Shown: positions 13,344 to 34,303 of the stretch, in pieces
How the letters are laid out: every line of letters starts with the position of its first letter
Numbering within the stretch: the stretch's first letter is position 1
Origin: Acidimicrobiales bacterium
GTDB taxonomy: Bacteria > Actinomycetota > Acidimicrobiia > Acidimicrobiales > Iamiaceae
Reading direction: 5' to 3'
Assembly (NCBI GenBank): GCA_025463365.1
Contig: JAOBWM010000053.1
Coordinates: forward strand, 1-37,561
DNA: 37,561 nucleotides
Position numbers and translations under genes: made by a program
The notes under the pieces: generated by a model
The model's input: the letters and a program-made list of their open reading frames with translations, nothing else
What the model was told of the DNA's origin: nothing
Database searches by the model: none

Positions 13344-13635
13344 GTTCTTGTGTGGCTTCGTCGCCCAGGACCCGCCGATCGCACACAAGAAGGCGGCGTC
13401 GACCCGTTCTTGTGTGGCTTCGTCGCCCAGGACCCGCCGATTGCACACAAGAACCGAGCCAGCCCGCTTGCTGTCCCGCTGAGGCGCCAGCTGGCCAGCG
13501 TGGCTGGAGGCCGGAGACGTCGTCTCGTTCTTGTGTGAGTTCGTCGCCCGGGGCCCGCCGATTGCACACAGGAACCGAGCCAGCCCGGTTCTTGTGTGGC
13601 TTCGTCGCCCAGGACCCGCCGATCGCACACAAGAA
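13344..13635 (+). repeat. four copies of a 48-bp inverted-repeat unit
   Basis: Copies lie at 13344-13391, 13406-13453, 13527-13574 and 13588-13635. Each begins GTTCTTGTGTG and ends CACACAAGAA, so each can fold into a 10-bp stem with a loop of about 27 nt whose sequence is nearly constant. Copy 3 has CACACAGGAA in the right arm, which keeps the stem as a G-T pair on this strand. Start-to-start distances are 62, 121 and 61 nt. The flank CCGAGCCAGCCCG follows copies 2, 3 and 4, so the duplicated block is larger than the unit. The block fills the gap between convergent dedA and hppA; no gene is visible. Confidence 0.85.
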
Positions 13636-13730
13636 CCGAGCCAGCCCGCTTGCTGTCGCGCTGGGGCGGATCGCCTGCGGCGCTCGTCCTCTGATTCCGT
13701 CTAGCCCCGCCCGCCAGACCGTTCCGCAGC

Positions 13731-13850
13731 ACCGGCCTGCGGCCGCGCCGCACCCTCGGGGCCGTACCGGCCTGCGGCCTCGCCGCACCCTCGGGGCCCT
13801 ACCGGCCTGCGGCCTCGCCGCACCCTCGGGGCCGTACCGGCCCGCAACCC
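13731..13850 (+). repeat. 35-bp tandem repeat, about 3.4 copies
   Basis: Units at 13731-13765, 13766-13800 and 13801-13835, each starting ACCGGCCTGCGGCC and ending TCGGGGCCGT or TCGGGGCCCT, plus a decayed partial copy. Copies differ at one or two bases. The unit is not a multiple of three and no plausible protein is encoded. The rest of the gap, to 13983, is GC-rich with no feature I can name. Confidence 0.8.
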
Positions 13851-13983
13851 CCTCGCGCCCCACCCGCCTGCGCCCCGCTACATCGTCCCGCTCGCACCGG
13901 CCCTGCGGCCCCGCCGCATCCCGCGCGTCGCGCCGGCTGTGTCGGCCCACACGTCGGGGGAGGGCTCTGGTGCCCGGACGCGA

Positions 13984-30979: not shown

Positions 30980-32287
30980 TCAGCGACCGAACGGCGCCGC
31001 GCAGTCCCAGGCCCCTTCGACCTCGACCTTCTGGCGGCCGCGGTACGCATCCGGGTGCTCGCGCCGGCATTGCCAGTCGGTGATCACCGGACCCCAGCCG
31101 ACCGTGACGCCGACCTTGCCGCCGGTGGCCTGGTTGGGATCGTCGGGTCGGACCACGTTGACCCGAAGGACACAGAACGCGAGTTGCAAGGCGACCAGCG
31201 CGATCAGCAGGCGGGGCTTCGCCTCGAGGGCGACGCCGAGGAGGATCGCCAGGCAGAGCAGGCAGGGCAACAGGTGCGGCATCTTCCACGGGAACCGCAG
31301 GAAGAGGATCTGCGACAGCACGAAGCCGACGGTGGCGAACCGGACGAGCCAGGACGCCCGCCAGCTGGCCAGGGCCTTGGCCAGAGCGGGGAGGGCGAGC
31401 AGGGCGACCAGCGTGGCCGGCGGGCCGAGGAGGTTGAGGTCCTTGGCCAGCCCTCGACCGATCTGGACCGCGACACTCGAGGTCGAGAAGTCGTTCTCGG
31501 CGAACGAGAGGCCGTGAGCGGAGAGGTAGGAGGGCACGAAGGCGGCGATCGTGCCCAACCCGGCGACCACCGCGGTGATCAGCACGGCTCGCCGGGGTGA
31601 CCGCGCGGCAGAGGTGGGCTCGGCAGAGGTGGTCTCGGCGGTGTCGGTGTCGGTGGCGAAGGCGGTGGTGGTGGTTGCGTCCGCGATGTCGTGGGGTTCG
31701 TCGGGATCGCCGACTCGGTTCGCGGCCGCCCGGGGCTCCGTGAGCTCGGCGAGCAGGAAGGCCGCGACAAGGGCGCCGGAGCCGACCCGACAGCCCATCG
31801 ATGCTGCGGCGAGGAGTCCGGCGACGACAGGGTGGCCGCGGCGAAGGGCCAGGGCCGCGGCGATGACGAAGGCAAGGGCGAAGACGTACTCCGCTGTCGA
31901 CGTCGCCGCGATCACGAACCACGGGCACGCGCCGACGAGGGCCACGGCCCATCGCCCGCCAGGCCCGATGCCCTCGCGGCGGAGCAGTCGGTCGAGGCCG
32001 ACGAGCAGCGCGGCGGCGGCGGCGAGCGACGACAGGTTGGTGAGGACCGGTCCGCCGACAAGATCGAGGACACCGACGATGAGCTCGTGGACCGGCGCGC
32101 CCGGGGGTCGGCTCGGGACGTACGACAGGTGCTGCGCGATCGAGCGTCCGGAGCGGAAGATGTTGGCTACGTCGAGGTCGTTGCCGGGCCCCGAGACGAT
32201 GAGCGGCGCCGCGACGACCAGGCCGAGCGCAGCCCCGATCCATGGCCACCGCGAGGTGGGTTCGCTCCCTCGCAGGCGTGCCAGCAC
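30980..32287 (-). CDS. GT-C-like multi-pass membrane protein
   Basis: A 435-residue membrane protein with about ten hydrophobic helices and a short extracytoplasmic C-terminus containing cysteines (DWQCRREH, GAWDCAAPFG). The first loop after helix 1 (GPGNDLDVANIFRSGRSI, about 35-52) has the acidic residues typical of the catalytic loop in GT-C enzymes, and the aromatic HLSYVPSRPPG follows. The build suggests a mannosyl- or arabinosyl-type transferase using a polyprenyl-phosphate sugar. A Thr/Glu/Ala-rich low-complexity loop (about 205-228) sits mid-protein. The start is GTG at 32287, supported by a TAGACT box 8 nt upstream (leaderless). Located between repeat arrays and the VOC gene. Confidence 0.65.
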   Translation of the reverse strand: MLARLRGSEPTSRWPWIGAALGLVVAAPLIVSGPGNDLDVANIFRSGRSIAQHLSYVPSRPPGAPVHELIVGVLDLVGGPVLTNLSSLAAAAALLVGLDRLLRREGIGPGGRWAVALVGACPWFVIAATSTAEYVFALAFVIAAALALRRGHPVVAGLLAAASMGCRVGSGALVAAFLLAELTEPRAAANRVGDPDEPHDIADATTTTAFATDTDTAETTSAEPTSAARSPRRAVLITAVVAGLGTIAAFVPSYLSAHGLSFAENDFSTSSVAVQIGRGLAKDLNLLGPPATLVALLALPALAKALASWRASWLVRFATVGFVLSQILFLRFPWKMPHLLPCLLCLAILLGVALEAKPRLLIALVALQLAFCVLRVNVVRPDDPNQATGGKVGVTVGWGPVITDWQCRREHPDAYRGRQKVEVEGAWDCAAPFGR

Positions 32288-32295
32288 GACCGCCG

Positions 32296-32301
32296 AGTCT
32301 A
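32296..32301 (-). promoter_or_regulatory. -10 box TAGACT, leaderless start of the GT-C-like gene
   Basis: Minus-strand TAGACT, 8 nt (CGGCGGTC), then the GTG at 32287. It supports this start over others. Confidence 0.45.
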
Positions 32302-32366
32302 CGAAGCCCGTGGTCCCCGCCCCGCCACGCACCCGTGGACCCGCGCCCACCCCGCCCTCCGCGCCA

Positions 32367-32703
32367 GTGCGCGCACACCCGTGCCGATTGTGCGACGTGT
32401 GTGCGCTCCGGCGCGCTGGAAACACCAGAGCGCGCACACCCGTGCCGATTGTGCGGCGTGTGTGCGCTCCGGCGCGCTGGGCACACCAGAGCGCGCACAC
32501 CCGGTCGGCGGTCGGCGTCGGGGCGGCGTGTGTGCGCTCCGGCGCGCTGGGCACACCAGAGGGCGCACACCCCGTGGGCGGTCGGCGTCCGGGGCGAGGT
32601 GTGTGTCCTGTGGCGCGCTGGGCGCACCTGGGCGCGCACACCGCGACTGGATGATGCGGCGTGTGTGTGCTCTGGCGCGTTCTGCGCGCCTGGGCGCGCA
32701 CGC
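32367..32703 (+). repeat. array of 43-bp inverted-repeat units (five plus a half unit)
   Basis: Full units at 32397-32439, 32458-32500, 32528-32570, 32599-32641 and 32661-32703; the right arm of another at 32367-32378. A typical unit is GTGTGTGCGCTC, a 19-nt loop, then GAGCGCGCACAC, a 12-bp stem with one G-T pair. Spacers are 18, 27, 28 and 19 nt; the 18-nt spacer CCGTGCCGATTGTGCG(A/G)C occurs twice. Unit 5 differs from unit 2 at several arm positions, yet all 12 pairs remain possible using G-T pairs on this strand. Unit 3 has one mismatch and unit 4 has two. The array lies upstream of one GT-C-like gene and downstream of the other. I see no coding sequence in it. Confidence 0.88.
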
Positions 32704-32723
32704 CTCTCGGGCACGCGCGTCGG

Positions 32724-34181
32724 TCAGGCGAGTTTGGCGACCTGGGACGCGGCGGTGAGGAGCCACAGGCCGCCGAGCCCGATGCCCGCCAGCGTGAGCA
32801 GTCGATCGCGGCGCGATCCGAGGAGCACGAGGATCGACAAGATCCCGGCCTCGGTGCTCGCGCGGAGGAACGCGGTCGCACCCGACCACAGGTAGGCGTT
32901 CAGGAGCAACACGACGGCGACGGCCGGGACCCACGCCACGCGCTCGACGAGTGGAGCGGCGCTGCTCCGCCAGCACCATGCGGCCGCGGCGACGAGCGCC
33001 ACGAGCCCGATGATGCACAGCAGCCGGAACGCCTCGGTGCCTCCGCTCGGCGGCACGTCGTGGCCGAGCGCGCGGACCAGACCGGCAAGGGGGGCGCTGA
33101 GGTTGTTGTCGCCGGATGACGTGAGCGGGAGGGCGTCGAACCGGGCCCGTTGGACGAGCTGCCAAACGCCGAAGACGGCGAGCGCGCACCCTCCGACCGC
33201 AGTCGCGGCCAACCCTCGGGAACCGTCGCCCTCGGGCGGACGCCGCTCCTGCGCCGACGCGGTTTCCATCGGTTGACCTGCAGGTTCGTCAGATGTCGCC
33301 GCCGGTGGGTCGGTGGTCGACATCGCCAAGGGTGGGTCGGATTCGTCAGATGTCGCCACCGATGGGTCGATGGTCGACATCGCGAGGGACTGTCCGGCGT
33401 TCGACGGCACCACGAATGGGTCGACCATCGGCGCGCCGCCCCGTCGGCTCGCGAACCACGTCCAGGCGCCAGCCACGGCGACACCGAACGGCACCACGGC
33501 GGTCGTGTCACGGGTGAGGACCGCGCACGCGAAGAGGGCGGCGGCACCGGCCCAGCGACGCTGTCGAAGGGCGAGCAGCGCGCCCAGGGCGAACGCGGCG
33601 GCGACGAGCTCCGACGTGTCGAGCGACAGCGAGTAGGCGAACCCCGGCCACAGGGCCAGGAGCAGCCCCCAGCCCGCGTGGCGACCGGTTGCGCGTGCCA
33701 ACCCGCCACCGATCGCTCCGACCGCCACCGCGGCAGCCAGGTTCAATCCGACGAGGGCCCACGGGACGAGGTCGGGGTCTCCGCCGCTGGCGACGAAGGC
33801 GAGGGCGCCGTAGCCCCAGCGGGAGTTGCGCAGGGCGGGCAGGTCGAACTGCACGCCTGCCACCCGCGCGTCCTTCGACCACGGCGAGACGCCGAGCCGG
33901 TAGAAGAACTGGCCGTCGAACGCCTCGTCGGCGGCTTGCACGGCGAGCGACCCGGGAGCGGCGGCGGCGTGGGAATCGAGCGGCGTCGCCGCCCGCTCAG
34001 CCGCAGAGAGGCCGTCGCACGCGGGATCGGCGGCGCTCGCGGACGGCGTCGCGCACGGTGCCCCGGCGTGAACGAGCAGCGACGGGTCGCCGTCGGCCCG
34101 CACCAGCAGCGCACCCACGAACGTCAGCGCCAGCAGGCCGGCAGCGAGCGCCGGCACCCACAACCGGTCGGGGAGGCGCAC
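32724..34181 (-). CDS. multi-pass membrane protein, probable GT-C-type enzyme
   Basis: A 485-residue membrane protein: helix 1 at about 8-27, a large extracytoplasmic loop with a cysteine pair and the acidic/aromatic block DEAFDGQFFYRLGVSPWSKD (about 87-106), then about nine helices. The Asp/Phe-rich DGQFFYR loop recalls the first periplasmic loop of GT-C family proteins, but I cannot assign a substrate. A long hydrophilic cytoplasmic insert (about 250-325) contains a 19-residue repeat. The start is GTG at 34181, 6 nt after a TAGCGT box (leaderless). It lies between the 43-bp repeat array and a solitary copy of the same repeat. Confidence 0.65.
   Translation of the reverse strand: MRLPDRLWVPALAAGLLALTFVGALLVRADGDPSLLVHAGAPCATPSASAADPACDGLSAAERAATPLDSHAAAAPGSLAVQAADEAFDGQFFYRLGVSPWSKDARVAGVQFDLPALRNSRWGYGALAFVASGGDPDLVPWALVGLNLAAAVAVGAIGGGLARATGRHAGWGLLLALWPGFAYSLSLDTSELVAAAFALGALLALRQRRWAGAAALFACAVLTRDTTAVVPFGVAVAGAWTWFASRRGGAPMVDPFVVPSNAGQSLAMSTIDPSVATSDESDPPLAMSTTDPPAATSDEPAGQPMETASAQERRPPEGDGSRGLAATAVGGCALAVFGVWQLVQRARFDALPLTSSGDNNLSAPLAGLVRALGHDVPPSGGTEAFRLLCIIGLVALVAAAAWCWRSSAAPLVERVAWVPAVAVVLLLNAYLWSGATAFLRASTEAGILSILVLLGSRRDRLLTLAGIGLGGLWLLTAASQVAKLA
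33285..33398 (-). repeat. 57-bp direct repeat coding for a 19-residue repeat
   Basis: Two copies with period 57 bp, starting at 33285 and 33342. In the protein they read as SLAMST-DP-ATSDE-like units. Divergence between copies is low, so the duplication is recent. Confidence 0.8.
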
Positions 34182-34243: not shown

Positions 34244-34286
34244 GTGTGTGCGTGGCGGTGTGGTGGGCGCGTCGGGGTGCACACAC
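34244..34286 (+). repeat. solitary 43-bp inverted-repeat unit
   Basis: Same length and ends as the 32367-32703 array: GTGTGTGCGTGG, a 19-nt middle, then GGGTGCACACAC, with 8 bp of perfect outer stem. An additional half (GCGCACACACG) precedes it near 34215. It lies in the 122-nt gap between two minus-strand genes. Confidence 0.7.
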
Positions 34287-34303
34287 CTCGCCTGTCACGG
34301 CAC

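Follow-up and report, generated by a model that had tools for sequence, protein, structure and literature searches.

The array of interrupted palindromes at positions 32367-32703 of the window, which is the whole 37,561-nt stretch of DNA analysed here, is probably a cluster of REP/REPIN-like extragenic palindromes that belong to a species-private family, here called F1. A palindrome with the same build but another sequence is found in a sister species (genome G003), and, as far as a comparison of the copies can tell, this suggests a little-known kind of mobile repeat. The mobility reading rests on one genome per species, and the evidence for it is the existence of empty orthologous sites. The host would belong to an Aquihabitans-like genus, because the succinate dehydrogenase encoded in the window shares 89% identity with its counterpart in an Aquihabitans MAG.

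Copies in the window, the host genome and its relatives

The array consists of five 43-bp interrupted palindromes and one right-arm half unit (approximately 32367-32381). The units start at 32397, 32458, 32528, about 32599 and 32661, and they are separated by spacers of 18, 27, 28 and 19 nt. This bears out the array, the unit length and the two spacer classes (18-19 and 27-28 nt) of the original prediction, while the seven units that it intended for a covariance model come down to five and a half at this locus. That prediction overlooked a lone unit at 34244-34287, another array at 13344-13636, which belongs to a second family called F2, and about 106 further F1 copies in the genome. The features of the window are the following.

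13344-13392, minus strand: F2 palindrome, first unit of dimer 1, 49 bp
13406-13454, minus strand: F2 palindrome, second unit of dimer 1
13527-13575, minus strand: F2 palindrome, first unit of dimer 2
13588-13636, minus strand: F2 palindrome, second unit of dimer 2, at a 61-bp period
30980-32332, minus strand: left flanking gene, no family match (codon-usage gene prediction)
32367-32381, minus strand: F1 half unit, one arm only (sequence reading)
32397-32440, minus strand: F1 palindrome unit 1, minus orientation (A) by likeness to unit 2
32458-32501, minus strand: F1 palindrome unit 2 (F1 model, 58.0 bits)
32528-32571, minus strand: F1 palindrome unit 3 (F1 model, 52.4 bits)
32598-32642, minus strand: F1 palindrome unit 4 (F1 model, 53.4 bits)
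32661-32704, minus strand: F1 palindrome unit 5 (F1 model, 46.3 bits)
32724-34181, minus strand: right flanking gene, below-cutoff match to a cell-surface glycopolymer family (codon-usage gene prediction)
34244-34287, minus strand: lone F1 unit in the next intergenic gap (F1 model, 59.2 bits)

The F1 model scored unit 1 slightly higher on the plus strand (51.1 versus 49.2 bits). The array starts 20 nt past the stop codon of the right flanking gene. The tandem-palindrome detector that finds this array returned no pairs in block-shuffled samples of relatives, the controls being made from the relatives' DNA, and a chance origin of the array is excluded in practice. No Rfam match above the gathering score and no tRNA were found in the window. 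In the region 32200-32900, a scan that covers the sigma-70-like promoter type found no such promoter, and a terminator scan gave a single terminator-like match, located at unit 1, and none downstream of the array. No hairpin with a following T-run, as in an intrinsic terminator, was found behind the window array. Inside the right flanking gene call there are also two 47-bp direct copies (33285-33388), which are 89% alike and have a spacing of 57.

The original prediction had proposed a count of copies in the whole genome, and many were found. A blastn comparison of the window array with its own genome gave at least 40 matches spread over many contigs, and a model search with strands merged by hand gave at least 112 F1 units at 26 intergenic loci. 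The model was built from 86 units out of 17 fetched stretches. A gene script based on codon usage places all 26 loci outside genes; seven are located between convergent, nine between codirectional and three between divergent genes, and seven have a contig end at one side. Neighbouring F1 units are spaced over a broad range (54-68 and beyond). The F1 model was also run on 40 relatives, including 11 congeners, with filters that lose weak matches; it found nothing above 29.9 bits, and weak matches occurred once each in three of these genomes. A 23-base exact pattern, which has 39 matches, located in 15 of the 17 F1 stretches, and fits none of the window's own units, so that it tests the family core only, had no match in viral_contigs or in genome_contigs (84,980 genomes, among which the host's own may be absent). 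Neither did blastn match F1 in plasmids or phages.

The F2 family has 33 units of 49 bp in the host genome, 32 of which form 16 tandem dimers, with one single unit. The dimer period is 62 bp in 15 of the 16 dimers and 61 bp in the remaining one. The dimer C2:20250/20312 is an exception to the head-to-tail order, as its two units score best in opposite orientation. No F2 copy was found in any of the 11 congeners. A 35-bp G+C-rich tandem repeat adjoins the F2 array of the window at 13731-13860, within the long gap that precedes the pyrophosphatase gene.

When the tandem-palindrome detector was run on samples of 267-400 kb from relatives, it found five pairs in G003, two in G014, one each in G028 and G020, and none in G010 or in the shuffled controls. 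The main family of G003 (same genus, one contig of 4.94 Mb), called F3, has 48-bp units with arms AACTTGTGGGC. With the best 150 candidates scored, G003 contains at least 86 F3 units at at least 46 loci, and among the matches listed 15 loci are single, 24 double, 6 triple and 1 quintuple. Neighbouring units are 72-74 bp apart, mostly 73 bp, in 28 of 40 cases and 83-116 bp apart in the other 12. The F3 array had no match in 12 other genomes; restriction to one species was examined for F1, F2 and F3. A reading of the arms as scattered single words of the DNA-uptake type was rejected, as all 15 exact AACTTGTGGG copies in 400 kb of G003 are in paired units; of the 19 copies of the shorter CTTGTGGGC in the same 400 kb, five are outside paired units.

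G003 also contains another set of units, mostly 46-47 bp long, with a period of about 60 bp. One array, of three 47-bp units with a period of 71 bp, is present in the G014 sample, and several clusters of 46-bp units were found in G028, which belongs to another family of the order; these two genomes represent two other genera. The same build recurs across the families, with units of 44-49 bp, arms of about 11 bp, a mostly head-to-tail order and a location often just past stop codons, while the sequence differs. The G020 pair (L344) was discarded as a family, since it looks like a local duplication and its arms do not recur as units in the sample. Two observations in these genomes are added here. 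Clusters of 46-bp palindromes, TTCTCGGCGGC..GCCGCCGAGAA, are found in G028 at L322 7557-12220 and L339 10299-12577. In G003, a 39-bp palindrome (TGTCGCAGTTG..CAACTGCGAC) occurs five times over 4.6 kb (L154 10117-14750), at four gene borders in succession, with the last copy falling just inside a gene call.

Pairing, folding and strand bias

The arms of the window units were read by hand on the plus strand with G-T pairs allowed. Units 1, 2 and 5 have 12 pairs each, while one mismatch is present in unit 3 and two in unit 4. Full pairing is thus kept in three of the five units, among them units 2 and 5, for which the original prediction had stated it. The predicted RNA folds of the window units are more stable than those of dinucleotide shuffles (z from -2.2 to -6.1), with the exception of the minus strand of unit 4 (z -1.3). 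For units 1-3 the minus strand gives the more stable folds (-30.0, -35.3 and -31.2 kcal/mol, versus -24.1, -27.8 and -24.2 kcal/mol for the plus strand), while for units 4 and 5 the plus strand is the more stable one.

In the families as a whole, pairing was compared with shuffles. The 86 F1 units are 81.1% paired versus 80.9% in shuffles, with covariation of 0.033 in both, and F2 is 80.9% paired versus 81.2%, without an excess of covariation. Pairing in F3 is below that of the shuffles (79.8 versus 83.3; 500 of 500), because alignment columns 13/36 stay G.G or C.C in 45 of 53 units and columns 15/34 do so in 44 of 53. The stem mismatches of F1 and F2 are at other positions than those of F3 and are less strictly kept. 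Pairwise identity in arms and interior is 0.90 and 0.64 for F1, 0.93 and 0.69 for F2, and 0.995 and 0.75 for F3, the spacers of which have an identity of 0.43. The kept mismatches together with the lack of covariation therefore point to a constraint on a conserved symmetric sequence, beyond that of a mere stem.

These data bear on the proposal of the original prediction that the array is a small structured RNA selected on the plus strand, which we consider very improbable. The proposal draws on an excess of G.T over A.C on one strand. In F1, with units oriented by whole-unit similarity, arms included, there are 265 G.T cells versus 33 A.C cells on the plus strand of that prediction, and F3 has 83 versus 24, mostly at two positions, while F2 shows no bias (27 versus 25). 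The strand skew, however, also reaches the spacers: the plus-strand G+T content of F1, equal to the A+C content of the opposite strand, is 66% in spacers and 69% in unit interiors versus 53% in flanks (window 32364-32704 and 19 loci). The reading as a plus-strand RNA is unsupported because pairing shows no covariation, F1 and F2 being no better than shuffles and F3 worse, and because the G.T bias is common to the unpaired spacers. The prediction had also expected arm changes in other copies to keep pairing more often than to break it, and they break it as often as by chance. The strand is not clearly tied to genes either, as at the nine codirectional F1 loci the plus-type strand is antisense to the genes in six and sense in three, which are too few for a rule. 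The better folding of the minus strand in three of the five window units, the absence of an Rfam match, and the absence of a sigma-70-like promoter around the array, within a scan that leaves other promoter types aside, also speak against it.

Genomic placement and growth of the arrays

Six congeners show synteny of the two genes that flank the window array; in G003 another gene is located in between. At this junction the gap is 391 bp long in the host genome, while in G010, G008 and G002 it is about 40-60 bp long and contains no array. One gene has an F1 array past its stop codon in the host genome and an F3 array past its stop codon in G003 (L066 and L206; 82% identical), and in two more gene neighbourhoods F2 in the host genome corresponds to F3 in G003 (L093/L185 and L089/L186). 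Gaps of this 3′ type may have been landing sites more than once. The palindrome is most likely a mobile, non-autonomous element. By eye, a different palindromic repeat, TTTCGACTCCG.. / ..CGGAGTCGAAA, was noticed at the orthologous junction of the window array in G004 (L367 ~2525-2690) and G006 (L366 ~700-930). A common neighbour gene was also considered as the mobilizer, and it was dismissed after an all-against-all comparison of 256 flank proteins, which gave homologues without a shared partner. A Pfam search of 10 flank genes found ordinary enzymes and transporters and no mobilizer candidate.

The palindromes tend to be located behind genes. In F3, the median distance is 46 bp to the stop codon and 106 bp to the start codon (40 of 46 loci, one skipped). 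Among codirectional loci, the stop is nearer than the start in 15 of 17 for F3, 8 of 9 for F1, and 5 of 8 for F2, which is barely 3′-biased. Fourteen of 39 F3 loci are convergent, 8 divergent and 17 codirectional, as compared with 56, 58 and 212 among all gene pairs of the G003 sample, or 18, 35 and 43 when the gaps are at least 150 bp long.

This 3′ bias and the share of convergent gaps, as well as the stable folds on both strands of the window units, are what would be expected if the hairpins were bidirectional transcription terminators or stabilisers of mRNA 3′ ends, kept for ending or protecting the transcripts of flanking genes. This explanation is nevertheless unlikely. Terminators require no common sequence, yet the arms are 90-99% identical genome-wide and their pairing does not covary. 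The arrays are present in divergent gaps as well (three for F1, two for F2 and eight for F3), the only terminator-like match in 32200-32900 is at unit 1 with none after the array, and three congeners do without an array at the junction of the window.

The growth of the clusters could be followed in the spacers. The match of F3 spacers to their own flanks is 0.65, versus 0.507 ± 0.013 to the flanks of other loci (38 spacers; 0 of 500), and the likeness of F3 interiors is 92% among units of one locus and 76% among units of different loci. On the evidence of this likeness to the flanks, F3 clusters are therefore shown to have grown in place, by local tandem duplication of the palindrome with flanking bases. 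All 36 informative neighbour pairs in the fetched F3 loci are direct, and at the unfetched G003 locus 4339557 the third unit scores best in opposite orientation. The same growth may be assumed for F1 arrays from the likeness of spacers within arrays. The duplicated F3 segment has a nearly constant length, while its ends vary relative to the unit, so that the split point varies. Staggered nicks centred on the dyad found no support as the source of the duplications, as the split points, taken from the seven best-matching 25-nt F3 spacers, are off-centre (2 to 19.5 of 25).

The nearly fixed period, 62 in F2 and mostly 73 in F3 despite diverged spacers, together with symmetric conserved half sites without covariation, could also be accounted for if a dimeric DNA-binding protein, such as a nucleoid organiser or a partition or supercoiling factor, bound the arrays at tandem sites of fixed spacing. 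Helical phasing of the units, suggested by the distances 62, 73, 84 and 93 and by the two spacer classes of the window, found no support, since the distances off the mode show no quantisation by helical turns (P = 0.26 for F1, 0.11 for F3 and 0.30 for G028; 0.71 for F1 and F3 pooled). The broad spacing of F1 does not agree with fixed sites either, the conserved mismatches favour a folded strand, and a sequence that differs wholly between congeners would be unusual for a core chromosome factor. Hence, we regard such binding-site arrays as quite unlikely.

A mobile palindrome could account for these data as follows. Single units would spread by copying, with a putative enzyme recognising the folded palindrome by its arms and conserved internal mismatches, and clusters would amplify locally by tandem duplication. 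New copies would survive mainly downstream of stop codons, presumably because that spot harms genes least. The hairpins there may have a side effect too, in ending or protecting transcripts; roles as terminators or protein sites may be by-products of the mobile element or rivals to it.

Comparison with REP, CRISPR and integron systems

CRISPR arrays likewise are made of regularly spaced repeats, at a period of about 60-73 bp. The arrays described here differ from them in being many and dispersed, in the variation of their repeats, and in their spacers, which recur in F1 and resemble local flanks in F3. The original call that the layout is not CRISPR holds as far as tested, the repeats being variable and the spacers recurring within F1 arrays. 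Its statement that no cas gene is near agrees with a PADLOC scan of eight window proteins, in which no Cas protein was found and the sole match covers a glycosidase.

Long imperfect hairpins with conserved mismatches, a private sequence and a tandem order are also features expected of integron-like recombination sites, that is, attC-like hairpins in tandem. We find this reading hardly credible, as there are no cassettes between the units and the palindromes are dispersed over dozens of loci. The integron integrase model TIGR02249 found nothing above cutoff in the host genome, G003, G014 and G028, and none of 14 control genomes passes it either, so that this search has no positive control.

The suggestion of the original prediction that the element is REP-like holds in kind, as the palindromes are dispersed, extragenic and multicopy. 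The link to a Y1-type transposase, which it also raised, found no counterpart in the genomes: Y1_Tnp (PF01797) is absent from the host genome and from all 12 genus genomes, several of which are incomplete, while the control search finds that of E. coli, and in the family 2 of 24 genomes have it. GTAG or its complement was not found at the ends of any of 169 aligned F1, F2 and F3 units (6 nt outside and 4 nt inside). The palindromes thus differ from the GTAG-REP/RAYT system in lacking the tag and, in the genus genomes searched, the Y1 transposase, and because both are absent we call them REP-like and not members of the GTAG class. Another group, the CGTC-REPs, is palindromic and is described, in the part of the source concerned with them, as having no dedicated transposase found; its stems are 8-9 bp long with loops of 4-5 nt, and its members are mostly head-head dimers (PMC3733652). 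The arms here, in contrast, are about 11 bp long around some 20-27 nt, and a CGTC tag is not constant: it is located at or near a unit end in 11 of 86 F1, 4 of 30 F2 and 5 of 53 F3 units, and GACG in 5, 1 and 6, respectively.

A wider reading, which is possible though doubtful, is that Acidimicrobiia carry an undescribed class of transposase-less palindromes. Its members would share a blueprint, namely a 44-49-bp interrupted palindrome with arms of about 11 bp and kept internal mismatches, arranged head-to-tail at a family-specific, nearly fixed period. The sequence would be replaced between species, and the class would be served by a non-Y1 recognition enzyme, which would copy a measured length of flank along with the palindrome. 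A full-text literature search returned no paper that combined REPINs and RAYT with Actinobacteria and none on Aquihabitans repeats.

The closest likeness is to REPINs, which the relevant passages of one study describe as short, species-specific extragenic palindromes with tens to hundreds of copies per genome, present as singles and as ordered tandem clusters that include flanks (PMC3116915). F1 resembles them in being palindromic, extragenic and of high copy (at least 112 units at 26 loci), and F3, the family examined for this, in having tandem clusters that include flanking DNA (38 spacers). The stem mismatches kept in F3 resemble those of REP group 2, as one REP group is described, in the portion of the paper devoted to it, as having a conserved stem mismatch, and they are comparable to the bulge that E. 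coli REPs need (PMC8266576). In the pertinent parts of these three accounts, REP elements are either linked to a single transposase family or lack a known mover (PMC3116915; PMC3733652; PMC8266576). Beside them, families that keep the same build but differ in sequence between congeners, that come without a Y1 transposase and in high copy, and that have empty sites at an orthologous junction offer a tractable case for asking what else spreads short palindromes, and what fixes their near-constant tandem spacing.
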